Source: an uncultured bacterium (GTDB taxonomy: Bacteria; Armatimonadota; UBA5829). From it: 64,000 bases of DNA. Below are positions 41,235-62,300 of the stretch, one piece after another. The DNA lies in contig CALJES010000011.1 in NCBI GenBank assembly GCA_938074205.1, forward strand, positions 186,001-250,000. Reading direction: 5' to 3'. Within the stretch, counting starts at the first letter, position 1, and every line of letters begins with the position of its first letter. A program made the translations under genes and the position numbers. The notes below the pieces were generated by a model, which did no database searches, was not told the origin of the DNA, and was given only the letters and a program-made list of their open reading frames with translations.

Positions 41235-41609
41235 AATATATCACCTCTTTTCCAAAGAAAAAACCTCGTGCAAAGCGAATAGTCAAACGTGGTTGTTAGG
41301 TGAAGTCGAAAGAAGTGCAATATATCATCTACCCAACTGCACGCTTTGCGGCAGCTGAGCATTGCAGCACGAGCTGCGTCCGTTCAACACTCCCGTCTAA
41401 CCGCATTTTATCCCGAATAGCCGCGATTGTCAATTGTTCCTTCTGTGAGTTGCTGGTATCTATCCCATCATACTACATCCAGCAGGAATTCCTGTTTATT
41501 CCGGATAATCAATTTATCGGACTACGGAGTGTGCTACTGTAGTCCGAATAGAACTTAGTCGTTCCCACTATTGCCGCTGGGAAGCAAGGTCTATTGTTTA
41601 GGAGACGAT
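41235..41609. promoter_or_regulatory. Divergent intergenic region with two dyads
   Basis: A 375-bp divergent gap between the prepilin and the CBM9/GH123-like gene, with no gene seen in it. Near its right end are two inverted repeats: GATAA-TCAAT-TTATC (41504-41518) and CGGACTAC-N13-GTAGTCCG (41518-41546), sharing one base. Neither is followed by a U-run. They lie 64-106 bp before the start of the + operon, an operator-like position. The GGAG at 41601 is the ribosome-binding site of the downstream gene. No clear -35/-10 pair was identified. Confidence 0.45.
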
Positions 41610-44240: not shown

Positions 44241-46260
44241 GATTATCGAAGCGATGAAGACAGTTCAAGAAGAACAACCATCAACAGTTGCTGGTACTTG
44301 CTCGACTGATCATCAGCTCAGCGGTATAACCCTTCGCGGGGTTCTTATAGGCCTCATTTTGGTAGCAATCACATGCCTGTGCGTCTGCTGGGCTGAACTG
44401 GTGCTGAAGACCATACAAATCGGTTTTCTGCAGATGCCGCCTGCAGCAATCGGAATATTTTTCTTTTTGGTTTTGCTCAACAAGGCGATGCGGCAGATGG
44501 GAGAGCGTTTCAGGCTCGGTCCCAACGAGCTTCTAATGATCTACATGATGATGGTTGTTGCGTGTATGGTCTCCTCACGGGGCATTATGGAGAAGATCAT
44601 TCCTCTTTTCGTGACACCAAATTACTACGCCAACAGCAGCAACCAATGGGCTGAGCTAATGTTCCCTCACATAAAGAAATGGATAGTGGCTTTCGATCCG
44701 GCTGGTCCTCCGCAGCAGCCTGTGGCAAAGGCGTTTTTCGAAGGACTGCGCGCCGGTGAATCCATCCCGTGGCAGTTGTGGGTTACTCCGTTAGTTTGTT
44801 GGGGAGTGCTGGTGTTCCTAGTTATTTTTGCTTTTATGTGCGTGGCGACCATGCTCCGTAGGCAGTGGGTGGACAACGAAAAACTGAGCTTTCCACTGGT
44901 TCAGTTGCCGCTTGAGCTTGCAAAGGGAGAACACAACCAGGACATCCTAAAAAACAAGCTCCTCTGGGGCGGTGTAGCGGTTCCGGCCATCGTTTTCACA
45001 ATCAACGGCGTTCACAACGTAATACCTGCCGTACCTGAAATAACGCTGAGCTTATACCTTAACCCGTTCTTCGTAAACCGTCCGTGGAGCGAAATATACT
45101 GGACCACTATTTTCCTTTCCTTTGCAGCAATAGGATTTTTCTTCTTGTTGCCTACTGAGATAATCTTCTCTCTGTGGTTTTTTGCTCTTTTTGCACGTTT
45201 TCAGGATGTAGTATCTGCGTCGTTTGGTATGGATATGCCTCGGATGCCAATGTACGGTACACATGCTTATGTGGCTTATCAGGTGGTCGGGGCATACGTC
45301 GTTCTAGCCGGATATCTTTTCTTTGTGGCTTTGCCCCATCTGAAACGAGTCATGCGTTCAGTGTGGCACGGACTGAGTACCCCTGAGGACAAAAATGAAC
45401 TACTCCCCTACCCAGTCGCCTTCTGGGGATTGCTTATAAGCTTTGCACTAATCCTGCTTTGGTGCAGGTTGGCTGGTATGTCTACGTGGCTTGCAGTGCT
45501 TCAGTTCTTCGTGTTTCTTTTCATTGTCGCTATAGTGATGACTCGAAGTACAGCAGAAGCCGGCGTACTTATGACGGAAACCTCATTTCGGCCTGTCGAT
45601 TTCTACCGCATGTTTGCTCCCGCCACAAACCTGGGTCCCGCCAATCTGACGGTCATGGCTTTCACGGATGCTGCTTTTATGCGTGACCAACGCGGCCTAC
45701 TGCTGACTGGCTTTATGGACGGCTTGAAGATCGCCGACGGTGGACGTATGAGCCGTGCGGCAATGCGATGGATCTTCTTGTTCGGAGTCGTTGCAGCCAT
45801 GTTCGTTGCAGGTGCTATACACATATGGCTTCCGTATACGAAAGGAGCAATAAACCTCTATACCTATCCATACAGTGGCAACAACTACTGGGCCTTTCAC
45901 GAGGCAGAGTCGCAAATTCGCGGTGCTCCGTTGCCTGATTGGCAGCCCAAAACGTTCTTTGTCGTAGGTGTGCTTTTCACGCTGTTCTTGTCCTATATGC
46001 GAGCGGCGTACTATTGGTGGCCTTTCCATCCGCTTGGCTACGCCCTCTGCATCTCCTGGACGATGAGCGTCTTCTGGTTCTCGTGTCTTATAGCTTGGAT
46101 CATAAAGACTGTTATTCTACGCTATGGGGGCATGAAGTTGTACATCAAAGCAAGGCCGTGGTTCTTGGGAATGGTGTTAGGTGAATTTGGGATGGCTGTA
46201 ATATGGGCTCTGATTAGCGGAGTTACTGGCATTACGGCCCCGACGTTCCCTTGGCCTTGA
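44230..46260 (+). CDS. DUF6785-family multi-span membrane protein (possible transporter)
   Basis: Integral membrane protein of about 670 residues with roughly 14 hydrophobic segments. I recognise the DUF6785/DUF6784 pattern (ITLRGVLIGLILVAITCLCV; RLGPNELLMIYMMMVVACMV; RRQWVDNEKLSFPLVQLPLE; MTRSTAEAGVLMTETSFRP). This family is common in Armatimonadota and Planctomycetota, often beside glycoside hydrolases, and resembles oligopeptide-transporter-like folds. No transport substrate is established. The gene overlaps the upstream stop by 11 bp (GTG 44230) or starts at ATG 44254. In this operon it is the only membrane protein, so an uptake role for the released sugars is the natural hypothesis. Confidence 0.85.
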   Translation: MRNRIIEAMKTVQEEQPSTVAGTCSTDHQLSGITLRGVLIGLILVAITCLCVCWAELVLKTIQIGFLQMPPAAIGIFFFLVLLNKAMRQMGERFRLGPNELLMIYMMMVVACMVSSRGIMEKIIPLFVTPNYYANSSNQWAELMFPHIKKWIVAFDPAGPPQQPVAKAFFEGLRAGESIPWQLWVTPLVCWGVLVFLVIFAFMCVATMLRRQWVDNEKLSFPLVQLPLELAKGEHNQDILKNKLLWGGVAVPAIVFTINGVHNVIPAVPEITLSLYLNPFFVNRPWSEIYWTTIFLSFAAIGFFFLLPTEIIFSLWFFALFARFQDVVSASFGMDMPRMPMYGTHAYVAYQVVGAYVVLAGYLFFVALPHLKRVMRSVWHGLSTPEDKNELLPYPVAFWGLLISFALILLWCRLAGMSTWLAVLQFFVFLFIVAIVMTRSTAEAGVLMTETSFRPVDFYRMFAPATNLGPANLTVMAFTDAAFMRDQRGLLLTGFMDGLKIADGGRMSRAAMRWIFLFGVVAAMFVAGAIHIWLPYTKGAINLYTYPYSGNNYWAFHEAESQIRGAPLPDWQPKTFFVVGVLFTLFLSYMRAAYYWWPFHPLGYALCISWTMSVFWFSCLIAWIIKTVILRYGGMKLYIKARPWFLGMVLGEFGMAVIWALISGVTGITAPTFPWP

Positions 46261-46289
46261 TAGGACTGCACGGATCGGAGGAGATCACC

Positions 46290-47765
46290 GTGGTTTTCAG
46301 AGATAACAGACTTCTATTCATTGATACGCGTGAAATAGCTTCGATGGAGAATATTACGCTAAGAATGAATTCGCCCGAGAAGAGGGGTGTATGCTTAGCT
46401 GTGGAGACTCCTTGGGAGCTGTCAATAGTTCGCGCGTCCAGCATAGTGTATTGGGAAGGAGAGTACCGCCTTTACTATACAGTGAAACTTGACGAGATGC
46501 ATCATGCGCTCGCCTTCGCAGTTTCCAAGGACGGGATCATTTGGGATAGGCCTGAACTCAATGCAGTAGAATTTAAAGGCTCTAAGAAAAACAACCTGGT
46601 CGACATCGAGGGCATGTGCCCAGACGAAACGTGCGTCTTCGTTGACCCGACCGGTCCTGATGAGCACAGATTCAAACTCATATGCCATTCGCCTTACAAG
46701 GGGACCTGGTTGATGACTTCGGCGGATGGAATGCGCTTCAAGTATGCGGGTGGCGCTTTGATTGAAAGGGCGACCGACAATCATATGTCCGTTTTTTATG
46801 ATCCTACCATCGGCAAGTACAGACTCTATCTACGAGGGAGCGACAAAAGCAGACCTATAATGGGTTGGAGCGGAAGTCGTAGCGTGGTCTACGCGGAAAC
46901 CGACGATCTGTTTAAGCCCATACCCATTGATGAGAATGCGCCCGATCCTCACGAACGTGGTATGGTTCGACCTGGTCCGGACGGGAAGCCTATTCAACCG
47001 CTTGCTGCCATAAATCGCGAGCTTCCCAAAGTTCTGTTTATGGACGAAAAGGATCCTCCGCAGGCCGATATGTACCAGCCTGCCGTTCACCTATATTGCC
47101 CCGCTGCCTACGTGGCTTTCCCAACGCTTTACTACCACTATCCTGGTCTCGACCAGGGTGGGTTCCATAACGATGGCGTGCTGGATATTCAATTCGCGAC
47201 CAGCCGAGACGGATATTTGTGGCGCCGCGACTTCCGAGGTTCTTATGTTCGCCTGGATTTGCCCGGCGGCCGAACTACAAAGCAGATGCATATGCTCCTG
47301 GGCATGGTGGCTCACGAGCACACCCTTAGCCAGTATTATTGTGGAAGCAACCGCACACATGGCGAAGGTCGCACAGTCGACAATCCGAAGGGTATAGGGT
47401 TCCATGAACCGAAACTAGGTGATCCAATTGCTCTTCGACTGGAACAGCGAATCGACGGCTTCGTTTCAGCCGACAGTGACTACTGCGGCGGGTCGCTTGT
47501 CACTCAGCCCTTTAAGCTGCAAAGTTCTGAGTTGTGTATAAATGTCGACACGTCTGCAAGCGGTGTCGCCTGGGCTGCACTGTTGGATGAGAACGGATGG
47601 GAAGTCCCCGGCTGCCGACTGGAGGAATCTGACAGAATTCAAGGTAACGACACCAGATACAAGCTTTCCTGGCAGGGCAAATCAGACCTTTCCCGTCTAG
47701 TTGGAAAGAACATTCGCCTGCTCATAAAAAGCCGCAACACCAGGCTATTCGCAGTTTATCCGTAG
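46290..47765 (+). CDS. GH32/43-like five-bladed beta-propeller protein (cytoplasmic)
   Basis: Predicted glycosidase or phosphorylase-like protein of about 492 residues with no signal peptide. GTG 46290 lies 7 bases after CGGAGGAG, better than the upstream TTG 46251. Propeller-blade segments: IVRASSIVYWEGEYRLYYTV, FAVSKDGIIWDRPEL, VFVDPTGPDEHRFKLICHSP and MSVFYDPTIGKYRLYLRGSD, typical of the GH43/GH32/GH130 superfamily. The last 90 residues form a beta-sandwich (FKLQSSELCINVDTSASGVA; KNIRLLIKSRNTRLFAVYP) that is matched in the propeller protein at 57566, so these two are distant paralogs in opposite operons. Substrate unknown. Confidence 0.78.
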   Translation: MVFRDNRLLFIDTREIASMENITLRMNSPEKRGVCLAVETPWELSIVRASSIVYWEGEYRLYYTVKLDEMHHALAFAVSKDGIIWDRPELNAVEFKGSKKNNLVDIEGMCPDETCVFVDPTGPDEHRFKLICHSPYKGTWLMTSADGMRFKYAGGALIERATDNHMSVFYDPTIGKYRLYLRGSDKSRPIMGWSGSRSVVYAETDDLFKPIPIDENAPDPHERGMVRPGPDGKPIQPLAAINRELPKVLFMDEKDPPQADMYQPAVHLYCPAAYVAFPTLYYHYPGLDQGGFHNDGVLDIQFATSRDGYLWRRDFRGSYVRLDLPGGRTTKQMHMLLGMVAHEHTLSQYYCGSNRTHGEGRTVDNPKGIGFHEPKLGDPIALRLEQRIDGFVSADSDYCGGSLVTQPFKLQSSELCINVDTSASGVAWAALLDENGWEVPGCRLEESDRIQGNDTRYKLSWQGKSDLSRLVGKNIRLLIKSRNTRLFAVYP

Positions 47766-47809
47766 ACCACGAACGAGATCGTTTGGTTCTATCTAGGGAG
47801 GGATATCAA

Positions 47810-49027
47810 GTGGCGCAGCAAGTCTTCGACCAATCGTTTCTGCTTGACAGAGCTGTCAAATGCGGTGAATGGATGATACGCAATCAGATTACCGACCGCA
47901 TGGACGCCAACAAAGGCAGGTCCATACGCAGCTACGATGCGGATACCAAGGAACTCAGACTAACTGGAAACTGGATGTGCGGTACAATGGCAGCATCTTT
48001 GTGCGCACTGTATAAGCGCACATCTGACAAACGTTACCTAGACGGAGCCGTCAATGCTGCGCGTTACATATTGTCCCTGCAGGTTATGGACCAGACCGAT
48101 TGGCACTTTGGGGCAATTCGCGAGATAACTCCTCAGTCGATAGAATTCGCCCCTCGTGATGCAACCAGCGCAGCTTGGGGGTTGGTTTGGGTTGCTGAGG
48201 CGACCGGTGAGTCGATATATCTTGAGCGTGCTCGCCTCTTTGCGGACTGGCTCGTTGAAAAGGGAATGTATCGCGGTTGGCCTCTGTATGCCATATATAT
48301 GGATCCGAAACTAGACAATTTCTACTCTCGCGGCTCATTTCAGTCCGGGACTGGATTGTTCTTCTATGATCTTTTTCGAATGACCGGCGATACAAAATAC
48401 ATAGAGCGGGGCTTGTTACCCATCGCCACTATCTACAGAGATGAGTTTATCAAGGACGACGGACGGCTCATACTCGAGCGCGACCCCTTCACCGGGAAAG
48501 TTACGCATGCGGTCGAGGACCTTCAGGATCTTCCACAACACGCTCTTAACGATGACTTCGGAGTCACTATGATGATTGAGGCGTCGCGGTTCTTTGGCGA
48601 CAGGTCGTTCGTGGAAAAAGCAGCACTGTTCGCTCGTTGGGCTGCGTCTATTCAAGAAGAGGACGGAGGCTTCGTTCAGGGACGAATACCATCAGCAGTC
48701 CCCATGGCAGAAATGTATTTTCGCGACTTAGGTGAAGAGCTGGGTGACGATGCATTGATATCCGCAGCAGACAAGGCGCTCAGAAAACTGGTAACAATGC
48801 AGTGGCTGGACACTGGCGATCCAAAGCTGGATGGCGGTTTTCAGGGTGTCTACGAAGGTGTCGAACCGAATAAATGGGGGCGGCGGTGTGTTAACATGCG
48901 CACATCTGCATATGCCCTCGTGGCCCTTCTCAAGGCTGAAAGCGATCTCGCTGATATATGGTTGGGTACGCACAACAAGCCGTTCCAAGATCACAGATGG
49001 ATCGGTCTTCACGACTTGGTCTTCTAG
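47810..49027 (+). CDS. Six-hairpin (alpha/alpha)6-barrel glycosidase-like protein
   Basis: Cytoplasmic, about 405 residues. Start GTG 47810 is 8 bases after AGGGAGG. Helical-repeat landmarks: CGEWMIRNQITDRMD, TGNWMCGTMAASLCALYKRT, AARYILSLQVMDQTDWHFG, SAAWGLVWVAEATGESIYLE and FQSGTGLFFYDLFRMTGD. This is the pattern of the six-hairpin glycosidase superfamily (GH88/GH105-like, GH127-like or AGE epimerases). A catalytic residue cannot be named with confidence. It lies between the propeller hydrolase and the GH29 gene, with spacings of 45 and 41 bp. Unsaturated uronyl hydrolase is one possibility, beta-L-arabinofuranosidase-like another. Confidence 0.75.
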   Translation: MAQQVFDQSFLLDRAVKCGEWMIRNQITDRMDANKGRSIRSYDADTKELRLTGNWMCGTMAASLCALYKRTSDKRYLDGAVNAARYILSLQVMDQTDWHFGAIREITPQSIEFAPRDATSAAWGLVWVAEATGESIYLERARLFADWLVEKGMYRGWPLYAIYMDPKLDNFYSRGSFQSGTGLFFYDLFRMTGDTKYIERGLLPIATIYRDEFIKDDGRLILERDPFTGKVTHAVEDLQDLPQHALNDDFGVTMMIEASRFFGDRSFVEKAALFARWAASIQEEDGGFVQGRIPSAVPMAEMYFRDLGEELGDDALISAADKALRKLVTMQWLDTGDPKLDGGFQGVYEGVEPNKWGRRCVNMRTSAYALVALLKAESDLADIWLGTHNKPFQDHRWIGLHDLVF

Positions 49028-49067: not shown

Positions 49068-50357
49068 ATGAACGATTTTCCGCACGGTGACACTTCCTGG
49101 TTTGTTCACGACAGGTTTGGTCTCTTTATTCACTGGGGGATATTTTCGGCGGCTGGCCGACATGAGCAGGTAATGAGTCGCGAAAAAATGACGGTTGAGG
49201 AATACAGAAAGTACTTCGACCATTTTGATCCGGATCTTTTTGATCCTTACAGCTGGGCGCGCGAAGCAAAAAACGCTGGAATGAAGTACTTTGTCGTAAC
49301 GGCCAAGCACCACGACGGTTTTTGCCTGTTCGATTCTGCGCTGACAGATTACAAAGCTACAAACACCCTTGCCGGGCGCGACCTATTGCGCGAGATAATC
49401 GACGCGTTCCGCGATCAGGGATTTCGCGTCGGCATATACTATTCGCTTCTCGACTGGCATCACCCCGAGTTTCCTTTGGATGGTCGTCATCCGCTGCGTG
49501 ATAATCTCGAAGCGCGAGAGTGCGAAAAGCATCGTGATATAGCCAAATACCGTGAGTACATGTTCGGCCAGGTCAGAGAACTTCTGACCAAATACGGTCG
49601 CATTGACATCCTCTGGCTCGATTTTTCCTATCCTCATTCAGATTGGGGGTGGGCAAAGGGCAAGGGGCGCGATGACTGGGATTCCGAATCCTTGGTGCGC
49701 ATGGTTCGCAGTTTGCAGCCTCACGTAATTCTTAACGATCGCCTTGATCTGCCCGGAGCTGGCGACATTATCACGCCAGAGCAATTCCAACCGCCGGAAT
49801 GGCCAAAAGTGAATGGCAAGAAGGCGATATGGGAAGCTTGTCAGACGCTGAATGTAAGCTGGGGATACGACAGGGAAGCGTTGCACTGGAAGTCGCCTGA
49901 TATGCTGCTTCGCATGCTGATTGACTGTGTATCAAAGGGCGGAAATTTCCTTCTTAATGTTGGTCCTAACGGCCGGGGAGAATTCGAGCCGAAAGCTTTG
50001 GAACGACTGCGTTTCATTGGTGAATGGATGAGACTCCATTCGCGATCGATCTATGGTTGCACGGCGAGTGATTACGAACCGCCGCCCGACTGCCGTTATA
50101 CGCAGAGCGGTAACAGGTTATACCTGCATTTCTTTGCTTGGCCCTACAAACACGTGTATTTGAAAGGATTGGCGGGGAAGGTCGAATATGCCCAGTTGCT
50201 CAGTGACGGTTCAGAAGTCAAACACTTCACTTTGGATCCAGCAAAGCAGGTACACACTTCAGTGATGAGCGGACTGCCCGGAGCTGAGATCCTTGAGCTT
50301 CCAACGATTAAGCCCGAAGTGGCTGTGCCTGTAATCGAAATTTTCCTGAAAGAATGA
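49068..50357 (+). CDS. GH29 alpha-L-fucosidase (cytoplasmic)
   Basis: Retaining alpha-L-fucosidase family member without signal peptide. Hallmarks: WFVHDRFGLFIHWGIFSAAG (residues 11-30), FVVTAKHHDGFCLFDSALTD, GFRVGIYYSLLDWHHPEF, and RIDILWLDFSYPHSDWG in which Asp185 is the expected nucleophile. Later segments are TLNVSWGYDREALHWKSPD, KGGNFLLNVGPNGRGEFEP and a C-terminal beta-sandwich. The nucleophile motif is LDFS rather than the common LDG, a small deviation. ATG 49068 has GAGGAA in front. It is the last gene of the + operon and converges with the minus operon 11 bp away. Some GH29 members act on other 6-deoxy sugars, so strict fucose specificity is not certain. Confidence 0.93.
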   Translation: MNDFPHGDTSWFVHDRFGLFIHWGIFSAAGRHEQVMSREKMTVEEYRKYFDHFDPDLFDPYSWAREAKNAGMKYFVVTAKHHDGFCLFDSALTDYKATNTLAGRDLLREIIDAFRDQGFRVGIYYSLLDWHHPEFPLDGRHPLRDNLEARECEKHRDIAKYREYMFGQVRELLTKYGRIDILWLDFSYPHSDWGWAKGKGRDDWDSESLVRMVRSLQPHVILNDRLDLPGAGDIITPEQFQPPEWPKVNGKKAIWEACQTLNVSWGYDREALHWKSPDMLLRMLIDCVSKGGNFLLNVGPNGRGEFEPKALERLRFIGEWMRLHSRSIYGCTASDYEPPPDCRYTQSGNRLYLHFFAWPYKHVYLKGLAGKVEYAQLLSDGSEVKHFTLDPAKQVHTSVMSGLPGAEILELPTIKPEVAVPVIEIFLKE

Positions 50358-50368
50358 TCTTGGTCGCG

Positions 50369-52405
50369 CTACTTTTCAACTAGCTCGGTTTTCAGAGCTT
50401 GTACGTTTGCCGCGAACTTCTTTTCATAGAGAAATTGCAGCGCGCCGCGCAGATTCGAGTCTGAAGTCAGTATGATGAGCCTTGTAAGTTCCAAAGTGCC
50501 AAGGTCGAGCTCTATCGAGTGGCCGTCACGTTTCCAATTGACGTTTCTTGTGCCGTCGGCTGTTATCTCGAATGCGTCCGCGACGTTAATCCATGTTGGA
50601 GTCTGCAGCGAGATATTAGTTTTTTCGATAGGCTTGTAGACGGTACCCAGTCGATCGCAGAGAACGTTGTCGTTGGTAACAGCAACTACAATAGTATCGG
50701 TTCCCAGTGCTAGGCACCTAGCAGACACCAAGCGAGGGGCTTTGATCTCTAGCCTTACGGGTTGACTGAGAGTTAGCACGGGTCCTGCGGTTCGTAGCTC
50801 GGCACCCAGAAGTCCGACTTCTTTGTACAACGCTTTGGCTGCAGGTTCGCCCGACCCCATGCCATAGCAGTCACCGGCTGCTGTAAACCACCAATAAGAT
50901 ATTCCTTTGGCCCCAGCTCCAATGGCGTAATAGACCTCTAGTCGTTTTTCCTCAGGGGTTGGGTAGCGGCCCGTGTAGTCGCCCTGGGTCTTCTCATCGC
51001 GGTATCTAGTAGAGCACAGAATCACGTGAAGGGGTTTTGGTTGGCAGGCGGATTGACTGATAACCGTAACCGCGTAAACATACGTCGGCTTCGTGAAAGC
51101 TGCATATCGGCCCGGACGTTTGGTATAAACCATGTCCAACTCACCTTGGTAGTAGGGATCTATGCACGGTATGTCGGCAAGCTGGTGGTACATAGGCCAG
51201 TTTTCGGGCTTGTATGTTCCATCTACATTGAGCAATATCGGCGTCTTGGGGTCTAATCGGCGGAGTTCGTCAGCCCTTTCGACAAGCGCTTGTCCCAGCA
51301 AGCCCAGTCGCTCGTTCGGCGGCAGGTCGTCTATTCCATAGTCTTGTGCATCTGGCTCGTCCAGCAGGAAATAGAAAATAGGATTCCGGGCGTTGCCATA
51401 CCAAGTCGCCATGTTTCTGAAACCCAGCGACCGAAGAAATTCGAAACCTTTAGCATCAAGCGACAATTCCATCGTCGGCTTGTCCCCATGGCCCATATGT
51501 ACGTTGAAGTTATGAGCCGCCCAGTCTTTGTAGGCTGAATAAGGGTCGCCTCCCGATCCCCATATCCCGTATACAAACTCGTGTCCCCATGCTCTTACGC
51601 CCGTCGTGGCAGCCGTTCCATCAGGGAATCCTGCTCTCAGACAGTGATACGACATCAGATCGAGTGGTTTGGCAAGCTTGATGACTATCGGAACGATATC
51701 TACTTTTGGGTCAAAGCCCACTTTTGCAGAGGCAGTAACGTCCTTTCCATCCAAGTATATCCGGTTAGGTCTGACTGCGCCCTTGGGGTGCTTCAGGTAT
51801 GCGTAGATGGTGTTCAATTCTGGTGTGAAGTACACACCGGCAAATCTCGGATCAGACTTTGTCGTAAATACCTGGACTGAACCTATACCTTTGGACGGCT
51901 GTGTGAGTATTTCGAGCTTGATGTTTTCAACCTTAGGCTGTCTCTTCAAACGGATGACAATTTGCCCCAAGCCCTTCGGTGCCACAGTGCGAGGTTCTGC
52001 CTTCCACCAAACCGGCTCCCCCGCATTTCGCAGCTTTTGCTTTGCCGAGTCTGGAATCTTCGAAACAGCAATACTGTGACCGTAGAGTTCGCCGCACGCG
52101 TCGTTCGTTCGACCAAGCCCTTCACTAAGCTTTATGCCTTCTATGGCAATATCGGATATTGTTAATGGAGCTGTGCTTGAGTTTAGAAAGTGTATGAAGA
52201 CGTAAGCCCCAGGTGCATCTTGATGAGGCGGATAATCTTGCCCCTTAGCCAGTGCGAAACCTTCGTGCCAAAGCCCTCGAAACTCAGGAAAGGGAGTATC
52301 AGGATAATAGTGGGTTGCGAAAACTTTGAGTTCCTCGCAGTAACTGGTCAGCGCAAAAAGGGACAGCATTAGAGCCGCCCAAGTGACAACAGCGGCAAAT
52401 CGCAT
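50369..52405 (-). CDS. Secreted putative glycoside hydrolase of unassigned family (paralog 1)
   Basis: Exported protein, 678 residues, with signal peptide MRFAAVVTWAALMLSLFALT; a GAGGAGG site supports the start. The N-terminal half is beta-rich. The C-terminal half looks like a TIM barrel: GNARNPIFYFLLDEPDAQDY (possible catalytic Asp-Glu), then TPILLNVDGTYKPENW, DIPCIDPYYQGELDMV, PTPEEKRLEVYYAIGAGAKG and ISYWWFTAAGD. It ends with a beta-sandwich. The gene at 54380 has the same order and shares DEPDA(Q/H)D, PTPEE and (Y)A(I/L)G-x-G-x-KGI. I do not recognise an established family; the DEP motif is reminiscent of GH123. It is the last gene of the minus operon. Confidence 0.75.
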   Translation of the reverse strand: MRFAAVVTWAALMLSLFALTSYCEELKVFATHYYPDTPFPEFRGLWHEGFALAKGQDYPPHQDAPGAYVFIHFLNSSTAPLTISDIAIEGIKLSEGLGRTNDACGELYGHSIAVSKIPDSAKQKLRNAGEPVWWKAEPRTVAPKGLGQIVIRLKRQPKVENIKLEILTQPSKGIGSVQVFTTKSDPRFAGVYFTPELNTIYAYLKHPKGAVRPNRIYLDGKDVTASAKVGFDPKVDIVPIVIKLAKPLDLMSYHCLRAGFPDGTAATTGVRAWGHEFVYGIWGSGGDPYSAYKDWAAHNFNVHMGHGDKPTMELSLDAKGFEFLRSLGFRNMATWYGNARNPIFYFLLDEPDAQDYGIDDLPPNERLGLLGQALVERADELRRLDPKTPILLNVDGTYKPENWPMYHQLADIPCIDPYYQGELDMVYTKRPGRYAAFTKPTYVYAVTVISQSACQPKPLHVILCSTRYRDEKTQGDYTGRYPTPEEKRLEVYYAIGAGAKGISYWWFTAAGDCYGMGSGEPAAKALYKEVGLLGAELRTAGPVLTLSQPVRLEIKAPRLVSARCLALGTDTIVVAVTNDNVLCDRLGTVYKPIEKTNISLQTPTWINVADAFEITADGTRNVNWKRDGHSIELDLGTLELTRLIILTSDSNLRGALQFLYEKKFAANVQALKTELVEK

Positions 52406-52429
52406 TATGGGCGAAACCTCCTCTTCGGG

Positions 52430-53431
52430 TTACAATTCGACTGCCCGGCCGGTCTTTGACGATTGCTGGGCAGCCAACATAACTTCTACTGCTCGGGCTC
52501 CAGCTTCTATGTCCACAGGAACGGGCGCACGCGAAACACAAGCCTCAAGGAAGATCCTATCCTCAGTGCGAAACATGTCGTCACGGTCAGTCTTTATCTC
52601 TTTATGAGTCCATTGTTTCTTGTTTGCTTCGTATATCGAGACTGTGCACTCGTCCCATTTGGCAAACTCAACTATGATCGTCCCGTCAGTACCAAACAAC
52701 TCCGTTTGCCGATGTCTGACACGCTCAAAGAAATCAAGGTGCACGCTTGCTGCACACTTTTCCTCAAATTCAATTATCATCTCCGCCAGATCCGGCGACT
52801 CCATAGGCACGTCACTGAATCTCCCATCTAAGCCGAACACTCTCTTGGGTTTCTGACCGGCAAACCAGAGGGCAAGGTCGATGTCGTGCATAAGCTCGTA
52901 AGCTCCACTGTATTTGGAGACGTAGCGGTTCAGATAATCGGGCATCACCTCCGGTATGTACTCGCCGAAAACGCAGCGGATAGATATAAGACGGCCTATG
53001 CGTCCTGCATCTAACCACTTCTTAGCGCGCACTAGCCCGTCGTGGAAGCGAAAACAATGGGCAACCATCACAACGCTCCGACGTTCGGAGACCAGAGACT
53101 TCAGATTGTCCACACCTTCGAGCTTTGTCGAAAGCGGTTTTTCGATCATTACATCTGCGCCGGCTTGCACAGCAGCGGCTGCTTGTTCAACATGCATACC
53201 AGTCGGAGAACAAACAAATACCGTGTCCGGCTTGTCCGCCAGAGCATCTTCAACCGACGAGTACGTTTTCTCGATCCCCAGTTCTCCGCGAGCGGCATTG
53301 AGTCTTTCGGGTATCGTTTCACAAACTCGAACGTCGCGCACTCCTATTTCTTTCAGTACTCGTGCGTGTCTGCGTCCGATAGATCCGAAGCCGATCACGA
53401 GAGCGCTCTTTTCTTGCCATTCCTGTGCCAT
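52430..53431 (-). CDS. Gfo/Idh/MocA-family oxidoreductase
   Basis: NAD(P)-dependent sugar oxidoreductase, 333 residues. The Rossmann motif is ALVIGFGSIGRRHARVLKEI, the EKP motif is in ADVMIEKPLSTKLEG, and the catalytic region YSGAYELMHDIDLALWFAG carries the HDIDLA stretch. ATG 53431 is 7 bases after GAGGA; the TTG six bases upstream is a poorer start. It is the fifth gene of the minus operon, after an SDR, and likely oxidises or interconverts a sugar or inositol freed by the hydrolases. The substrate is unknown. Unlike the WlbA-like enzyme at 33026 it lacks the PHD catalytic context. Confidence 0.9.
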   Translation of the reverse strand: MAQEWQEKSALVIGFGSIGRRHARVLKEIGVRDVRVCETIPERLNAARGELGIEKTYSSVEDALADKPDTVFVCSPTGMHVEQAAAAVQAGADVMIEKPLSTKLEGVDNLKSLVSERRSVVMVAHCFRFHDGLVRAKKWLDAGRIGRLISIRCVFGEYIPEVMPDYLNRYVSKYSGAYELMHDIDLALWFAGQKPKRVFGLDGRFSDVPMESPDLAEMIIEFEEKCAASVHLDFFERVRHRQTELFGTDGTIIVEFAKWDECTVSIYEANKKQWTHKEIKTDRDDMFRTEDRIFLEACVSRAPVPVDIEAGARAVEVMLAAQQSSKTGRAVEL

Positions 53432-53455
53432 CTGCAAATCCTCGCTTACCTACGT

Positions 53456-54271
53456 CTACCAAACTGTAAACCCGCCATCTACTACCAGGTTATGTCCTGT
53501 TACGTAGCTCGACGCGTCGGATGCCAAGAAAACAACCGGTCCTTTCATTTCTAATCCGTCGATGCCCATTCGTCCCATGGGAGTAGCACTGCAATAGGCT
53601 TTGACGAATGGTTCCGGCTGGTTTCTGAAGAAACCCCCTGGGCTGATGCAGTTGACCCTTATGTTGTAGCGAGCAAGATACACTGCCATATCCCGAGTCA
53701 TAGCTATCACGCCTCCTTTGGCAGCTTCGTAATCGACTGTCGAGCCGCCCATATCGGTACCTTCATAGACTCTGCGGTCTCGCCCTATAATACCGGCTAT
53801 GGATCCGATATTGATGATATTGCCCTTATTGGCAGGTATCATGGCTTTTCGAACCACGTGCTTGCTGCACAAGAACGTTCCTGTCAAGTTGACGTTTATT
53901 GTATTGAGCCACTCCTCTAGAGGTCTATCCTCAATCTGAGCAGTCTCGGGCTTGCTGACGACATTGCCGGCATTGTTCACCAGTATGTCTATCTTGCCAA
54001 ACTCCTTCAGGCAAGCATCTACTGCGGATGCTACTTGGTCTTCGTTAGTGACATCAAGTTCGAGAGGCAATACTCTCTTCTCGGTTCTGCGAGCAATGTC
54101 AGCAGCGGATTTCTCGGCAGACTCAAGATTTCGAGATGTTATACACACGTCAGCTCCTGCCTCAGCCAGTGCCAGAGCCATGTCAAAGCCCAGGTTTCTT
54201 GCCCCGCCGGTCACCAGCGCAACACGACCGTCAAGCCTGAACAACTCCATCACGTTCGGAAACTCTTGCAT
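53456..54271 (-). CDS. Short-chain dehydrogenase/reductase (classical SDR)
   Basis: Classical SDR. Cofactor motif ALVTGGARNLGFDMALALAE (TGxxxxxG), NNAGNVV motif, catalytic Ser region INIGSIAGIIG, active-site YEAAKGG (Tyr and Lys) and the C-terminal YVTGHNLVVDGGFTVW. It resembles gluconate 5-dehydrogenase or 2-deoxygluconate dehydrogenase-type enzymes. There is a small insertion (RDRRVYEGTDMGGSTVD) between the Ser and Tyr. ATG 54271 has GGAGGAG 8 bases upstream; a TTG 18 bases further up is disfavoured by spacing. In the operon it is followed by the Gfo/Idh gene, so the two probably act in sequence on one sugar. Confidence 0.92.
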   Translation of the reverse strand: MQEFPNVMELFRLDGRVALVTGGARNLGFDMALALAEAGADVCITSRNLESAEKSAADIARRTEKRVLPLELDVTNEDQVASAVDACLKEFGKIDILVNNAGNVVSKPETAQIEDRPLEEWLNTINVNLTGTFLCSKHVVRKAMIPANKGNIINIGSIAGIIGRDRRVYEGTDMGGSTVDYEAAKGGVIAMTRDMAVYLARYNIRVNCISPGGFFRNQPEPFVKAYCSATPMGRMGIDGLEMKGPVVFLASDASSYVTGHNLVVDGGFTVW

Positions 54272-54379
54272 CGCTCCGCTCCTCCGCAACTCCTTAGGTC
54301 AATAATTCTGTCGGAATTTCCTTTAGCAGGATATCAGTTTTCTCACTCGAGTAGACTGTGAAAGACCTATCTGCTGGTT

Positions 54380-56266
54380 TCATTTCTTTCTCACGAGGAA
54401 CACACGTGCTGCGTCTAGTGAGTCAAGATCCAGTGTCAACCGATCCTTCTTGACACTAGACGGGAACGGCCGCATCACACCATCAACGATCTCTTCCACC
54501 TTAACAGACTTGAATCCAGGGGGCAACTCCACCTCAGCACGGACTTTCTTCAGAGGGAAGTGGAAAGAGGTTTCTCGTTGCGTCTCGAATGCTATGTAGT
54601 GATGGGTGTTGACCAAAACAGCAACTGCGGCGTCCGGTCCGCACATAAGAGTTCGCACCCACACCTTATTCTGAATCGAGTATGCCCCTGCCGGGCATCC
54701 TATTGATAAGAACGGTGCAAGCGTCGCTATTTCTTTGTTTGCTTGCCCAACGGCTTCCCACAGTGGCTTGATATCGGACAATCCGACGAATTGTCCCTCG
54801 CCGGTTTCTCTCGTCATATCGATAAAGTAGCCAATTCCTTTGACTCCGCACCCCAGCGCGTAATGTATCATCATCCGCATTTCCTCGGGTGTAGGGGCGT
54901 TGCTGCCGAACTTCCTTTTGCCTCCCAAGCTGCAAGCCCAAAGCACCGCAACTACCGGTCGTGGCGTAGAAGCATCGCGCGCACACTCTAAGGCGTGGTA
55001 AACATAGTCCACTTGCCTGCCGTTTAAGGGCACGTAGGGATCGGTGCTGAATATGTCGGGAATCTGTCCGTACACATAGTAATTTAGAGGCTTGTATGTG
55101 TTGTCGACCAACAGCAAGTTAGGTACAGTGGGCAGTACTCGTCGTTGAAGCCTCTGCGCGGGAATCACCTCCGGTATCGCGTTCAGACCCAGCCGGTCAG
55201 GGAAGGGGATTGCGTCTCCTCTAGACGCATCGTGCGCATCCGGTTCGTCCTTGTTATATAGAAAAAGCACACCTTTTCTTGAACCGAGAGTTCTCGGCTT
55301 CCATTGTGCAGATGCGCCGTGAGGTATGCTGCACATCTCAGCTTCATCAAGGATGTCTGAAACATACCAGAAATATGTGTTTATACCTTTTTCCTTTGCT
55401 GCCTCCACATGTTCTTTGTCAGCTGTGCCAAAAAGACCGATGCAAAAATATCCGTCCCACGCCCTTACTGGCTCTACCAACCTTTCGCCGTCCGATTCTG
55501 CTTCGACTAAATGGAACGACCCGTACTTCCATGCAGGCGTCAGTTTCGCGGTAACCAAGACTAATCCAGAGGACAAAGGTCCCGCGGTAACCTTCGAGCT
55601 CACGGCCTTTCCGTCAAGTCGCAGCTTTGCATATTTCACCCTCTGTCTTGTCAGCGAGCGGATGTAAATGTAGATCGTGTCGATGTCGGGTGAGAATGAA
55701 ATGGACTCAATTCGCGTCTTGGGTGCCCGAGGTTCCACTTTGACTACAAGATTTTCTCCTGAGCCGGTGCGGAAACCGACTGTGCACGTTTTTGTTGGTG
55801 TATTGCGTAGGCGCAGAGTGCAGGTCACCCATTCACCTGGAGGCACGTCCTTTTGTATGTTCAAATCGGTGTCGTCGGGTCGTTGTGGATCTACCGGTAG
55901 CTGAGGAGACTCAATCAGGTACCAAACTACCTCGCCCAGCGATTTCTCACTGGTTGAGACTTCCGCCAGTGGTTTTCCGTTGAAGGAGATCAGAGAGATG
56001 GAATCCTTTTTGCCGGAGTGATTGCGCAGCACTATGTGCACGCTTCCCGCAGGGCGCATATACTTTGGATAAAACTGTTCCTCGAAACCCCAACCTTCCG
56101 TCCAAATGTAGTTTTCCCAAACTTGCTTTGCCGCATACAGATTCGCATCTGGTCGCCACCTCGCGTCCAGAACATCCCATTTTGCTGATGCGATCGCGCT
56201 GAGAGGCACGAGCAGGAGCCCTAGCACCAAGATGATAAGGCGCGTTCCATTTCCGAAATTACTCAT
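54380..56266 (-). CDS. Secreted putative glycoside hydrolase of unassigned family (paralog 2)
   Basis: Exported protein of about 628 residues. ATG 56266 is 6 bases after AAGGAG and opens a signal peptide (hydrophobic LIILVLGLLLVPLSAIASA). The N-terminal half is a beta-sandwich region (VHIVLRNHSGKKDSISLISF) with a segment matching the paralog at 50369 (SFSPDIDTIYIYIRSL against YFTPELNTIYAYLKHP). The barrel-like half has GVLFLYNKDEPDAHDASRGD, LLVDNTYKPLNYYVYGQIPD, IFSTDPYVPLNGRQVDYVYH and PTPEEMRMMIHYALGCGVKG. Two different secreted relatives in one operon suggest distinct substrates or subsites. No known family could be named. Confidence 0.75.
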   Translation of the reverse strand: MSNFGNGTRLIILVLGLLLVPLSAIASAKWDVLDARWRPDANLYAAKQVWENYIWTEGWGFEEQFYPKYMRPAGSVHIVLRNHSGKKDSISLISFNGKPLAEVSTSEKSLGEVVWYLIESPQLPVDPQRPDDTDLNIQKDVPPGEWVTCTLRLRNTPTKTCTVGFRTGSGENLVVKVEPRAPKTRIESISFSPDIDTIYIYIRSLTRQRVKYAKLRLDGKAVSSKVTAGPLSSGLVLVTAKLTPAWKYGSFHLVEAESDGERLVEPVRAWDGYFCIGLFGTADKEHVEAAKEKGINTYFWYVSDILDEAEMCSIPHGASAQWKPRTLGSRKGVLFLYNKDEPDAHDASRGDAIPFPDRLGLNAIPEVIPAQRLQRRVLPTVPNLLLVDNTYKPLNYYVYGQIPDIFSTDPYVPLNGRQVDYVYHALECARDASTPRPVVAVLWACSLGGKRKFGSNAPTPEEMRMMIHYALGCGVKGIGYFIDMTRETGEGQFVGLSDIKPLWEAVGQANKEIATLAPFLSIGCPAGAYSIQNKVWVRTLMCGPDAAVAVLVNTHHYIAFETQRETSFHFPLKKVRAEVELPPGFKSVKVEEIVDGVMRPFPSSVKKDRLTLDLDSLDAARVFLVRKK

Positions 56267-56311
56267 TCTTTTCTCCTTAAGCACCGATCCATTATTTCTA
56301 GCGAAGCTCTT

Positions 56312-57523
56312 CTATTCCACGAGTTTGGGGTCCACTTTGTTGACTTGCACAAACCGCCACACTGCGTTGTAGAAGTGGTAGTATTCGCCCTGGTCCTCCA
56401 GAAAGAATCCGTATGTCAAGTCACGCCAGTGCTGTTCAGGATGGAAGCCTTCGATGGAACACAGCAGCCGCGGTTCAGAGAATGCTAGTGGCTGGCCTTC
56501 TTTGGAACCTGTTTCTCTTCCAATAGTTATGTAGACCGGTTGCCGGTTCTTCGTGTGATCGAAAGGATCTGCACCTCCGAACGCAGTGCCGTCGTTGTTG
56601 CAGAAGAGCAGTGCATACCTATTGCCCGACAACTTCGTTAGAGGGCACGGACAGTTGGGATGAAGAATCCGTGGTCCCCCTTCGAAGTAACAGAGCGGCC
56701 GTGCTTCTCGCCAGTTCCGCCCCAAGTCTTCTGACACAGTGTAATAGATGCAACCGTTTCCCGTCCTGCATACGGAAAACAGTCTGCCGTCAGAGAGTTG
56801 GACTACCTGCGGTTCCTGTCCTAATGATTCAGCGGGTGCCGACTCGAGCGGCACCTTGACTCCGTGCGGAGGCGGCGGGTAGAACTGGAACGTGATCTCA
56901 GCCGGATCTTCAGCTGTCAGCACGTTTCTTGATATCGCAAAAACCAGCTCAGATCTGATTTCCGAAAGCGGCAGTGGGTCTGTCGATACGTTCATTGGCA
57001 GAAGCCACTCCGCGTATGCGCTGCTGCCTGCTTGCGACATGTCAGAATATATCGTTATGCCCGGGGCCATTAGATGCCAGCCGTCTCTTTGAGGCGACAG
57101 CTCATAGGTCGGTGTTTCAAGGCTGTACAGACTCCCGGGGCCTTCCGGACCCTCCCAGCTTCTGCCGTCGTCGTAGCTGACTGTATACCTGAGCTCGCCA
57201 AACCTCGTGTCAACGCGGGTGTGCTGAATGTGAAACTGATAAATCTTGTCTTCAAGCGGCAATAATTGCCCCATCTCTATTGTCTTGCCGGGTTCCAGCT
57301 TTCCTGGTTCGATTACGTAAACGCGGTCTTCCCACGTCTTCCCCCGGTCTACACTTCGGCGAGTATATGTTGTACCCCACCGGCTGTGGCCTATGGTTAC
57401 GCTGATCAGCCAAGTGCCCTGCTTTGTAATACAAAAGGAGTTTATGTACTGGCCATGTTCCGGACCGGCGTCATCAATGACAGAATAGGGTTTAAGTGCG
57501 CTCGTGCTGTAGTTATCTTCCAT
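56312..57523 (-). CDS. Sialidase-like beta-propeller (BNR/Asp-box) protein, cytoplasmic
   Basis: 403 residues, no signal peptide. Three Asp-box-type repeats are visible: SVDRGKTWED, SYDDGRSWEG and SEDLGRNWRE. With the surrounding strands they indicate a six-bladed sialidase-like propeller. The arginine triad of true sialidases cannot be placed with confidence, so it may act on another substrate or be a lyase-like relative. It is the second gene of the minus operon, 42 bp after the GH32/43-like gene. Lack of a secretion signal fits intracellular processing of imported oligosaccharides. Confidence 0.78.
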   Translation of the reverse strand: MEDNYSTSALKPYSVIDDAGPEHGQYINSFCITKQGTWLISVTIGHSRWGTTYTRRSVDRGKTWEDRVYVIEPGKLEPGKTIEMGQLLPLEDKIYQFHIQHTRVDTRFGELRYTVSYDDGRSWEGPEGPGSLYSLETPTYELSPQRDGWHLMAPGITIYSDMSQAGSSAYAEWLLPMNVSTDPLPLSEIRSELVFAISRNVLTAEDPAEITFQFYPPPPHGVKVPLESAPAESLGQEPQVVQLSDGRLFSVCRTGNGCIYYTVSEDLGRNWREARPLCYFEGGPRILHPNCPCPLTKLSGNRYALLFCNNDGTAFGGADPFDHTKNRQPVYITIGRETGSKEGQPLAFSEPRLLCSIEGFHPEQHWRDLTYGFFLEDQGEYYHFYNAVWRFVQVNKVDPKLVE

Positions 57524-57565: not shown

Positions 57566-59062
57566 CTAATTCTGCGGCCACTGCGGCTCGTAATTCGCTA
57601 CTTTGAACGCGTAGAGTTTCGCATTCCTCAAATAGAACCTGAAGCGGATATCCTCGGCAAAACGCAAAAAGTTCCCACGGCTGAAGTACTGTCCAGGTCC
57701 CGCTTTGAAAGCTACTACTGTCCGTATGTGGTTGCCTGTTATGGGTATACAATCGTTCCTAGTAACCCCTTCGATCGGGTTTCCATCTGTATCGGTAATT
57801 TCCACTACTACCTGGCCATTGGTAGCGTCGACGTTGAGAATCAAGTGTGTTGCCGAACCGGGTTTTGGCGGACGGAATGGTATGGTCGTGATAACCCCTT
57901 CGGCCTCCCCCGCTTCGTAGCAAACAAAACCATCACGGCGAAGAGTACCCGTACCCATTGCGCCATATCCAGCCTGGTAGTGAGGCGCGTTCTTGCCGGC
58001 ATACCAGAAGCGCATTCTATCACCCATAGGATGGGGCGGATTGTGCGTCAGCGCAACGTGTTTTGAATCCCAATCACCCTCGTTGCCACGTTCAAGTATT
58101 GGTTTCCTTTCCGGCAGCCTTTTCCAGTTTGTCAGATCGCGGCTGATAGCAAGCTGCACGTCCAGCGTCATTTCGTGCGTGTAGAACATCAGCAATTGTC
58201 CAAGGTAAAGATGCCCATAGGGGACGATGTACATTAGATAAATCTGAGCGTCGTCAGGGTCTTGGTTGTCGACTTCTAGTATCGTCGTTGCCGCCGTCCA
58301 ATGAATAAGATCTCTGCTTCTGAAAAGCGCTATATGTCGTTTCCAGGGCTTGCCCCACCTTCGGCACAGATTCCCGTATTCGTGGGAGCGTGTGGTTAGC
58401 AGAAACGTGCGTGTCACAGGATCCCAGCAGAAACCGTGGCAGTCGCCTTCATATGTGAGTACAGGCGGAAAATGCATTCGCCAGTGGATTCCATCCGGAC
58501 TATAGCACATCGTTATACCGTGGCTGTACAAATCGTCCGGATAACTTGACTGTAGGCTCGCGACAAACTTGTCTTCTCCGTTGGGGAATTCGTAAGGCAC
58601 CACGTTCCATACCTGTTCGCCTAGGTTGGAAGTACCTTCCGTATGTACGTCCTTGAAGCGCAATATATTGTTCTGCAGCGATCCTTCGTATAAAACCTCT
58701 CCGATCTCAGGCTTAATCCAATTGATACCGTCTTCGGAGATAGCGTACCTGCAGCTGTATCCTTGGTCAACAACTGGCGGGCTGTACATCCGATTGGCGA
58801 ACCTGTCGTACACGTTGTACCAGGCCTTGAAGAATTTGTCTGAAGGATCGTACAGCACGATTCCATAGAATGGGTCCTGAAGAGATGTCACGCTGCCGTC
58901 AGGTGCGACGCCCTCCCAGGGCTTCTCGGGCTTTATTACAGGTTCGCTTTCTTTATCTATTCGGCAAAGGCGTCGACTTGCGTTTTTACACTCGCTAACT
59001 AGGTCGGCGTCTACAAGTAGATAAAGATCCGGTTCTGCCCAGGTATGCGCTCGGATTGACAT
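57566..59062 (-). CDS. GH32/43-like beta-propeller protein (first gene of the minus operon)
   Basis: 498 residues, no signal peptide, preceded by a perfect AGGGAGG site. Propeller landmarks: DPFYGIVLYDPSDKFFKAWY, CRYAISEDGINWIKPEIGEV, CYSPDGIHWRMHFPPVLTYE, FCWDPVTRTFLLTTRSHEYG and LFRSRDLIHWTAATTILEVD, a repeated pattern of the GH32/GH43/GH130 superfamily. The last 90 residues are a beta-sandwich (LILNVDATNGQVVVEITD; IRFRFYLRNAKLYAFKVA) equivalent to that of the protein at 46290. A well-formed promoter lies directly upstream. It opens an operon with a sialidase-like protein, secreted hydrolases and two oxidoreductases. Substrate unknown. Confidence 0.82.
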   Translation of the reverse strand: MSIRAHTWAEPDLYLLVDADLVSECKNASRRLCRIDKESEPVIKPEKPWEGVAPDGSVTSLQDPFYGIVLYDPSDKFFKAWYNVYDRFANRMYSPPVVDQGYSCRYAISEDGINWIKPEIGEVLYEGSLQNNILRFKDVHTEGTSNLGEQVWNVVPYEFPNGEDKFVASLQSSYPDDLYSHGITMCYSPDGIHWRMHFPPVLTYEGDCHGFCWDPVTRTFLLTTRSHEYGNLCRRWGKPWKRHIALFRSRDLIHWTAATTILEVDNQDPDDAQIYLMYIVPYGHLYLGQLLMFYTHEMTLDVQLAISRDLTNWKRLPERKPILERGNEGDWDSKHVALTHNPPHPMGDRMRFWYAGKNAPHYQAGYGAMGTGTLRRDGFVCYEAGEAEGVITTIPFRPPKPGSATHLILNVDATNGQVVVEITDTDGNPIEGVTRNDCIPITGNHIRTVVAFKAGPGQYFSRGNFLRFAEDIRFRFYLRNAKLYAFKVANYEPQWPQN

Positions 59063-59309: not shown

Positions 59310-62300
59310 ATGTATGCATTTTCTAGGCGCAGCGTGCGTCAGTGGATGGTCATCTTGTTTGCCTCATTTGTGACTTCTGCCCTTACCTGTGCGTCTGCCG
59401 ACGAATTCCGGGCTTTTTGGGTTGACGCCTGGGGTAATGGTATTCTCAGCCAGTCACAAGTTGATGATTTGCTTGGAGTCGTCGGTGATCCCAATAGCCT
59501 GGGCAAAATAAGACAGGCGAACTGCAATGCCGTTGTGGTACAAGTTCGTCGAAGAGCTGACGTGTGCTATCCGTCTGCGGTAGGGGAGCCTTATTTTTCT
59601 GGCTTATCACCTGCAAACTTCAACGCATTACAGGCGGTAATTAATGCTGCCCACGATACTACCGGCGGAAAGAAAAGAATAGAGGTTCACGCTTGGATAG
59701 TGACCTTTGCAACGAGTTCCAGCAGCTATACTTCTCCCGTGTACTACGAACACAACGACCCTTCAGACCCCGACAACTATTGGATTACTAGGGACGATTC
59801 GGGATCCGAGCCTTCGGACAAGCCCTTTGATCCTGGACATCCCAGGGCACTTGAGTACTTAGTGAACGTATGTATGGATCTGGTTACGAACTTCGACATC
59901 GACGGCTTGCACTTCGACTACATCCGATTTACAGGTCAGCGTCAGGGCTATAATCCCACAAGTATTGAGCGTTTCAAGGCGCGTTATGGTCGCACCAGCA
60001 CCCCGGCTTACAACGACGCCGAATTTGCCCAATGGAGACGCGATCAGGTTACGGCCCTGGTGCGTCAGGTTTATGCCAGGATTCAGGCCGTCAAGCCCCA
60101 TGTAAAGCTTTCAGGTGCATTTGTTACGTGGAATCCTTCGCCTACCTCTTCTACTCGGAGCGCGTTTATGAACACGCGTCCCTATTACGAGGTGTATTCC
60201 GACTGGGACAGTTGGATGCAAGAGGGTATCATAGACATCGGGATTCCGATGACCTACTACAACTATGCCTCCTATCCCAACGACTATGTGAAGTGGATGA
60301 ATTTCCAAAAGGACCGAAAGGGCAATAGGCACGTCGCCGTAGGTGCAGGCATCTATCTGAATTCTCTAGACAACGCTATTCTCGAACTGAAAATGACTAG
60401 GGATCCTTCGGCGAACGGTAATTACGCCCAGGGTTTCTGTGGCTACTCCTATCGCGTGCCGTATAGCGGAGGAACGTGGTCGACGTTTAGTCCTCGCTTG
60501 GTTTCTGAGGTTACACCTACTTGGGCAGATATTCCGCCTATGCCATGGAAAGTTTCGCCGACCAAGGGACATATCAGTGGTCAGGTAACCTTAGCTCCCT
60601 CGGGGGCGTGGGCTGACGGTGCATATGGTGCTCAGGTAAGTATAACTGGTCCGGAAAATCGTACGATGCGCTGCGACGGGATGGGTTGGTACGCGTTTAT
60701 CGATCTGACTCCAGGCACCTATACTGTTACAGCAGTTTACCCTGGCTATCAGAGTCAGAGCAGGCAAGTTGTCGTAAACATAGGCGAAGTCACTGGAAAC
60801 ATGTACGTAACCCACTTCGAGCTTAGCACAAATGCTCCGCCTCAGATATCCGACGTGAGAGCTGAGAATATCACATCGTCCTCGGCTCAAATCAAGTGGA
60901 ATACAGACATTCCGTCTACGAGTCAAGTGGAGTACGGCTTGACCACCTCATACGGCCAAATTACGGCTTTGGATTCCAACCTTGTCACTTCTCACAGCAT
61001 GACTCTTACAAATCTGATCTCGAGCAAGACTTATCACTACCGTGTCCGCAGCAAGAACAGCTCAGGTGTTGAGTCCGTATCCGGTGATTATACCTTTTCA
61101 ACTGCGGCTGATACTACTGCTCCAACCATATTCAATGTGCAGGTTTCGAACATAACGGGCAATTCGGCTAGAATCACTTGGCTTACAGACGATTTATCAC
61201 TGGGTGAAGTTGAATATGGTTTAACTACGGCTTATGGTAGGTCAGTTGCCGAAAACAATGGATATCTGACCAGTCATTCCGTCGAGCTTACTGGTCTAAC
61301 GCAGAACACCCTGTATCACTTCCGAATCAAGGCTACGAACGGATCTGGTCTCGTGTCTTATTCACAGGACTTCACGTTTTCCACGACCGGACAAGTAGAC
61401 GATATTATCATCGATGATGCCGATCCGGCCTGCACTTTTACCGGCAGCTGGTCAATAGGCACATACGCCGGTGGATGGCCGCCGTCGGCAAGTTCATATC
61501 ATTGGATTGGGACCCAGGGGTCGCCTACCGGTACTGCTAGATGGACTCCCAACATACTTGCACCCGGCAAGTATGACATATATACCTACTATCTACAGGG
61601 ATCCAATCGCTCAACAGCTGCGCCTTTCAGCGTAGTGCATTCAAACGGCGCGAGCTACTACACGATTAACCAGCAGCAGAACGGGTCTCAGTGGTATAAG
61701 TTTGCCAGTGGAATAGAGTTCAAAGCCGGTACTGCAGGCTACGTAGAGCTACACAATGGCACCGGCGAATCCACCAAGGTTGTTATTGCAGACGCTATCA
61801 AGTTCGTATATGTCGGTCCCGAAACCACCCCTCCTTCATCTCCGTCGGGGCTGACAGCAGTTGCAGTTTCTCCTAACCGGATTGATCTTTCCTGGAATCC
61901 ATCTACCGACAACTTTGGTGTTGCCGGCTACCGAGTATATAGAAACGGAGTTTGTATCGATAGTTCACTGACTACGAGTTATACCGATACAGGGTTGGCG
62001 CCGAACACTCAGTATACTTACAGGGTTTCCGCATTCGACGATGCAGGTAACGAATCAGCGTTATCAAATCAAGTAAGTCGTTACACGCTTTCCGCGCCAC
62101 CTACCGATGCAAATGTAACCTGCAATCGTGCTGTCGGAGTCTGGTACAACACCGGAACCTTCACATTCCAATGTAGCGGTTTTGGACCGGGTAACGTTGC
62201 GTACTTTAGATATGCTTGGGATCAATCTCCTACTCATTCGTGGACTGGTAGCGAGCCTCAGTGGATGAGCGGATCTCTCAGCTTGCAGGCGTCTTCCAGC

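Follow-up and report, generated by a model that had tools for sequence, protein, structure and literature searches.

A candidate family of secreted GH42-like barrel proteins with a strand-4 Asp-Glu pair, represented by two paralogs in an uncultured member of the Armatimonadota

Glycoside hydrolases (GH) of clan GH-A act with retention and use two Glu residues. Enzymes of GH20 and GH84 are substrate-assisted, and GH66 relies on an Asp carried by strand 4 and a Glu carried by strand 6. BiBga42A, an enzyme of GH42, has Glu160 as its acid/base and Glu318 as its nucleophile; Asn159 and Asp285 contact the O2 of galactose, and Tyr287 is important for catalysis, with kcat reduced 80-170-fold in the Y287F variant (PMC10688820). 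The substrate-assisted enzymes of GH123 have an adjacent Asp-Glu pair in which the Asp holds the acetamido group and the Glu is the acid/base (PMC11087588). Our analysis of a stretch of 64,000 nucleotides from an uncultured bacterium of the Armatimonadota (UBA5829; assembly GCA_938074205.1, contig CALJES010000011.1, positions 186,001 to 250,000), here called the window, revealed two secreted proteins, A (50369..52405) and B (54380..56284), both encoded on the minus strand, that belong to a family named here for its DEPD motif. The explanation we favour, with a probability of about 0.4, is that A and B represent an undescribed secreted family of GH42-like glycosidases with an Asp-Glu pair on barrel strand 4, most likely acting by substrate assistance on 2-acetamido sugars.

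Protein A has 678 amino acids and an ATG start, while B has 634 amino acids from a GTG start at 56284, or 628 from an internal ATG at 56266 (MSNF). Both begin with a hydrophobic segment that reads like a signal peptide, ending in ASA in B. The two proteins share 26% identity over 618 aligned residues (BLASTP, expectation value E 2e-36), which makes them paralogs well beyond chance, and they carry the same motifs in the same order (A/B: DEPDAQD/DEPDAHD, DGTYKPEN/DNTYKPLN, IDPY/TDPY, PTPEE in both, and KGISY/KGIGY). An earlier note, made from the DNA sequence alone, had described two secreted paralogs with these motifs in order, and the open reading frames, the BLASTP match and a 58-row family alignment bear this out. 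Homologs were found in 60 of 291 Armatimonadota genomes, four copies of them in the genome of the window, and also in Planctomycetota, Sumerlaeota, Verrucomicrobiota and Kiritimatiellota; no plasmid copy of the family was found. A Phycisphaerae contig carries three tandem family genes, the last of them truncated where the contig stops (L008:173-5919), and two copies each are present in L109 and L110. The maximum-likelihood tree separates the A branch (26 rows) from a branch that unites a B clade of six rows, all of them from Armatimonadota, with a Q/E group, and makes A and B old paralogs. Identity between the branches is only 21-30%.

Neither A nor B had a match in Pfam-A (2025) or NCBIfam (June 2026), and searches of the PDB with the two sequences gave nothing significant. 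A weak GH42 signal (PF02449, best E 0.0019) appeared in 2 of the 58 family members, and the sole PDB match of the family profile was 5xb7, a GH42 enzyme (E 0.011, covering strands 7-8). Literature searches found no paper describing the DEPD family. As far as Pfam, NCBIfam, PDB sequences and the searched open literature reach, the family is undescribed, and any use of the word new is limited to these sources.

We compared the barrel profile of the family by hhalign with reference alignments of Armatimonadota proteins from GH42, GH2, GH35, GH5, GH29, GH123 and GH66, where E-values are those of single comparisons and the GH66 reference (PF13199 proteins) holds only 4 sequences. The highest probabilities were obtained with GH42 (96.4% local, 98.0% global; 96.5% and 97.9% with a B-first alignment), followed by GH2 (91.9% local, 93.1% global; 91-95% overall) and GH35 (2% and 40%). 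No relation was detected with GH5 (0.2%), GH29 (0.7%), GH123 (5.2%) or GH66 (0.1%), nor with reversed family sequences (at most 0.4%). As a yardstick among known families, GH42 itself reached 94.9% with GH5, 91.3% with GH2 and 94.5% with GH35. Profiles of single clades gave 90% (A clade), 94% (Q/E clade) and 24% (six-row B clade) with GH42. On these comparisons the DEPD-family barrel belongs to the clan GH-A type with GH42 nearest, so that the earlier statement that the proteins cannot be placed is not supported.

The relation extends to the catalytic residues, as seen in a joint alignment of the family with 30 GH42 proteins. All family counts are taken from the 58-sequence alignment in A numbering, with the members that have a residue at the column as denominators. 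D349-E350 of the family falls on the invariant Asn-Glu of GH42 (N159-E160, 30/30 each), in a register that is also obtained via GH2, and D416-x-Y418 falls on the Asp-x-Tyr of GH42 (D285-x-Y287, 30/30 each). Invariant in the family are D349, E350 and P351 (56/56) as well as T397, Y406, D411, Y418 and P456 (57/57); D352 (55/56), D416 and E486 (56/57 each) and R480 (53/57) are near-invariant, and the strand-8 aromatic residue is kept as W, Y or F in 57/57. Two positions depart from GH42. The Asn that precedes the acid/base, present in all 30 GH42 proteins, is Asp in 56 of 56 family members, and the strand-7 nucleophile Glu, also present in all 30, occurs in 0 of 57 members at column 463, the register given by the sequence alignment, and in 4 of 57 at column 464, where strand 7 ends according to DSSP. 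Column 463 holds L, F, Y, P or T in 57/57 and no acid, while column 464 holds Q (18), N (12), C (9), W (6), H (4), E (4) and others, with the residue clustering by clade. In either register of the alignment there is no conserved strand-7 Glu. Because the Asn has become Asp and the strand-7 nucleophile is lost, the family falls outside GH42. That it might be an ordinary subfamily of GH42-type beta-galactosidases with two catalytic Glu residues, as its strongest profile relative would suggest, is therefore scarcely credible, all the more as A and B are without a PF02449 match. At the sequence level this reading is refuted unless both alignments misplace the nucleophile.

Structure models were obtained with AlphaFold2 run on the family alignment, with mean predicted local distance difference test (pLDDT) values of 92.4 for A and 89.2 for B and predicted template modelling (pTM) scores of 0.92 and 0.90. 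Such models are predictions, and likeness of fold does not amount to likeness of function. Both consist of N-terminal beta-domains followed by a (beta/alpha)8 barrel and a C-terminal beta-domain. The barrel of A, delimited by DSSP on the model and by the GH42 profile match, comprises approximately residues 276-545 (50771..51580, minus strand like all residues located below), with strands at 278-282, 302-303, 330-333, 344-349, 390-394, 412-415, 460-464 and 501-505. Strand 4 of A ends with D349, the first residue of its DEPD motif (residues 349-352, 51350..51361), and the motif of B (residues 346-349, 55238..55249) is found in the same place, where strand 4 (342-346) ends. The Asp-Glu pair had been expected at the C-terminal end of a barrel strand, and in the models D349-E350 is indeed located at this end of strand 4. 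D416-P-Y418 of A (51152..51160) and D415-P-Y417 of B (55034..55042) stand at the end of strand 6. Strand 7 of A, with the sequence HVILC (residues 460-464, 51014..51028), is the expected place of the GH-A nucleophile Glu, and the PTPEE motif (residues 482-486, 50948..50962) begins the helix after it. Among solved structures, VIA-align ranked GH42 as the top relative of A (Z 20.1, root mean square deviation 3.2 over 315 residues) with GH164 close to it (Z 19.5), while for B the two were tied (GH164 Z 17.9, GH42 Z 17.2). The matches to both families span the barrel and the C-terminal beta-domain.

The top Foldseek matches were GH66 dextranases, for A (E 4.1e-14) as well as for B (E 5.1e-14), with template modelling scores of 0.3-0.4 and root mean square deviations of 14-18. 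A placement in GH66 was dropped, given the poor superposition and the absence of a profile relation. The matches nevertheless bear on the explanation that the proteins are GH42-like glycosidases with another kind of catalysis, either inverting or else retaining by way of a carboxylate in a displaced position, for which D416 (strand 6) and E486 (after strand 7) would be the candidates, perhaps in a GH66-like manner. We regard this as unlikely but as an alternative to be reckoned with, since both carboxylates are nearly invariant, D349 to D416 bridges strands 4 and 6, and the D349/E350 pair is no proof of acetamido chemistry. D349 and D416 stand on the two strands that bear the catalytic Asp and Glu of GH66, with an Asp at 416. 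However, D416 is invariant in GH42 as well, where it contacts O2 and is no catalyst, and the GH66 profile comparison with its 4 reference sequences was null.

Under the favoured explanation of substrate assistance, a family derived from a clan GH-A barrel, with GH42 nearest, would use E350 as the proton donor for hydrolysis of the glycosidic bond. The 2-acetamido group of the substrate itself would replace the missing enzyme nucleophile, as in GH20, GH84 and GH123, and D349 and Y418 would orient this group. Substrate assistance is suggested by analogy, because the Asn that has changed is, in GH42, in contact with position 2 of the sugar and because substrate-assisted enzymes such as those of GH123 use an adjacent Asp-Glu pair. 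More tentatively, a GH42-descended GH-A barrel may have turned from double displacement to substrate assistance through loss of the nucleophile and the change from Asn to Asp. The Asp-Glu machinery of the GH20, GH84 and GH123 type would then have arisen independently here and, to our knowledge, for the first time in clan GH-A. A new glycoside hydrolase family has to rest on demonstrated activity, and A and B lack the nucleophile that GH-A would lead one to expect, so that their hydrolysis of glycosidic bonds is an inference. Of the candidate new glycoside hydrolase family proposed in the earlier note, we retain a secreted, enzyme-like family that matches no Pfam or NCBIfam entry, while the hydrolase part of the proposal is weakened by the missing nucleophile.

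Several points weigh against substrate assistance. For strand 7 the register may be off by one residue, and a Glu at position 464 is kept in four members (L038, L030, L031 and L074), which may represent a transition from GH42-like to nucleophile-free forms. E486 lies at the catalytic face and might itself be a catalyst that has gone unrecognised. Outside the class, gene context is conserved only in part. Finally, the hhalign comparison with GH123 was not significant (about 5%), and any mechanism in common with GH123 would therefore be convergent.

The last point also concerns the idea that the family is a distant branch of GH123, the beta-N-acetylgalactosaminidases, in which an N-terminal beta-domain is likewise combined with a barrel that bears a DE motif on strand 4. 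Armatimonadota GH123 proteins show the same DEP context (SDEPHG), the GH123 structure 8k2g was among the Foldseek matches of B (E 1.9e-6), and a bona fide GH123 gene is present in the window. Yet PF13320 matched neither A nor B, nor does it figure among the families to which the 58 members gave matches, whereas the GH123 protein of the window, as a positive control, matched it with E 1.2e-30, and hhalign gave about 5% for GH123 against 96-98% for GH42. We therefore consider common membership very improbable; GH123 membership, which the DEP motif had suggested, was dropped after the profile comparison. A further alternative, improbable though less so, is that the proteins are non-catalytic and that a barrel without nucleophile now binds or displays carbohydrate. 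The filling of the nucleophile place by C, W, N, H or Q, clade by clade, and the four paralogs in one genome would fit such a role, but the acid/base Glu, the preceding Asp, the strand-6 Asp-x-Tyr and E486 are near-invariant despite the 21-30% identity between branches, unlike in typical pseudoenzymes.

The genomic neighbourhood is in line with glycan breakdown. On the minus strand the genes follow each other with short gaps in one operon, beginning with a GH43/GH130-like propeller protein (57566..59062; weak GH43 signal, NF052550 below cut-off), then a BNR-repeat protein with a sialidase-type propeller (56312..57523; PF13088, E 1.5e-8), B, a short-chain dehydrogenase (53456..54289; PF13561, E 4.3e-54), a Gfo/Idh/MocA-type oxidoreductase (52430..53437; PF01408, E 2.9e-21) and A. 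A GH29 alpha-L-fucosidase (49068..50357, plus strand; PF01120, E 4.4e-84) lies next door. As its gene converges on A from the plus strand, it stands outside the operon and is not co-transcribed. The earlier description of an operon with hydrolases is to be corrected on this point, GH29 being the clear hydrolase. The BNR protein adjoins B in 4 of 5 B-type loci examined and a relative of the GH43-like propeller is found near B in all five; GH29 stands beside A-type genes in the window, in the same genus and in one other family (two other genomes, L005 and L109). A motif scan for sulfatases next to family members gave no match, yet Pfam sulfatases occurred in 6 of 78 neighbours, and we conclude nothing on sulfatases. 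The context fits the breakdown of complex fucosylated or N-acetylhexosamine (HexNAc)-bearing glycans without identifying the substrate; judged, weakly, from the neighbouring GH29, BNR and GH123 genes, fucosylated, sialylated or HexNAc-containing glycans are the likely targets.

Further genes of the window are encoded on the plus strand. The GH123 protein, one of five GH123 matches in the genome, has 889 amino acids and a CBM9-like domain (41571-44240) and lies about 6 kb from A. It is followed by a DUF6785/DUF6784 membrane protein (44230-46260), a candidate transporter whose homologs adjoin A-type genes in L109, L114 and L011. A propeller protein (46251-47765) is related to the one at 57566-59062 on the minus strand; neither has a Pfam family above cut-off, and such propeller proteins are repeatedly found close to DEPD-family genes of several phyla (L006, L010, L019, L117-L119). 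A protein of 414 amino acids (47783-49027) gave only borderline matches to GH127 and GH76, and a protein of 1318 amino acids (59310-63266) contains a GHL10 hydrolase-like domain, fibronectin type III domains and a Golvesin C-terminal domain.

If the proteins are active, they would represent a broad glycosidase family, spread over several phyla, that the public libraries of families lack, and its kinship to GH42 makes a mechanistic change testable by point mutants. If they are substrate-assisted, they would illustrate how the loss of one residue, together with a change in another, makes a neighbouring-group enzyme out of a retaining enzyme with two Glu residues. If they are inactive, they would form an unusually well-conserved family of pseudoenzymes.

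Compared with described systems, the DEPD family shares with GH66 dextranases and CITases the top Foldseek match, but a profile probability of 0.1% and a poor superposition separate the two. With GH123/DUF4091 it has in common the adjacent Asp-Glu on strand 4 (followed by Pro in Armatimonadota members), the lack of a separate nucleophile and an N-terminal beta-domain, and it differs in showing neither a profile relation nor a PF13320 match. It resembles the GH164 beta-mannosidase Bs164 in fold, over barrel and C-terminal domain, at 9-12% identity and with no match in the PDB sequence search. The catalytic domain of GH2 (PF02836, clan GH-A) matches by profile, with its acid/base Asn-Glu under the DE of the family, though its match is weaker than that of GH42 and the differences are the same. 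Closest are the clan GH-A beta-galactosidases of GH42 (PF02449), which share with the family a homologous barrel, the strand-4 acid/base Glu, the strand-6 Asp-x-Tyr, the strand-8 aromatic residue and the C-terminal beta-domain within the VIA-align span, and from which it is set apart by Asp in place of Asn before the acid/base, the lack of the nucleophile Glu, large added N-terminal beta-domains and a signal peptide.

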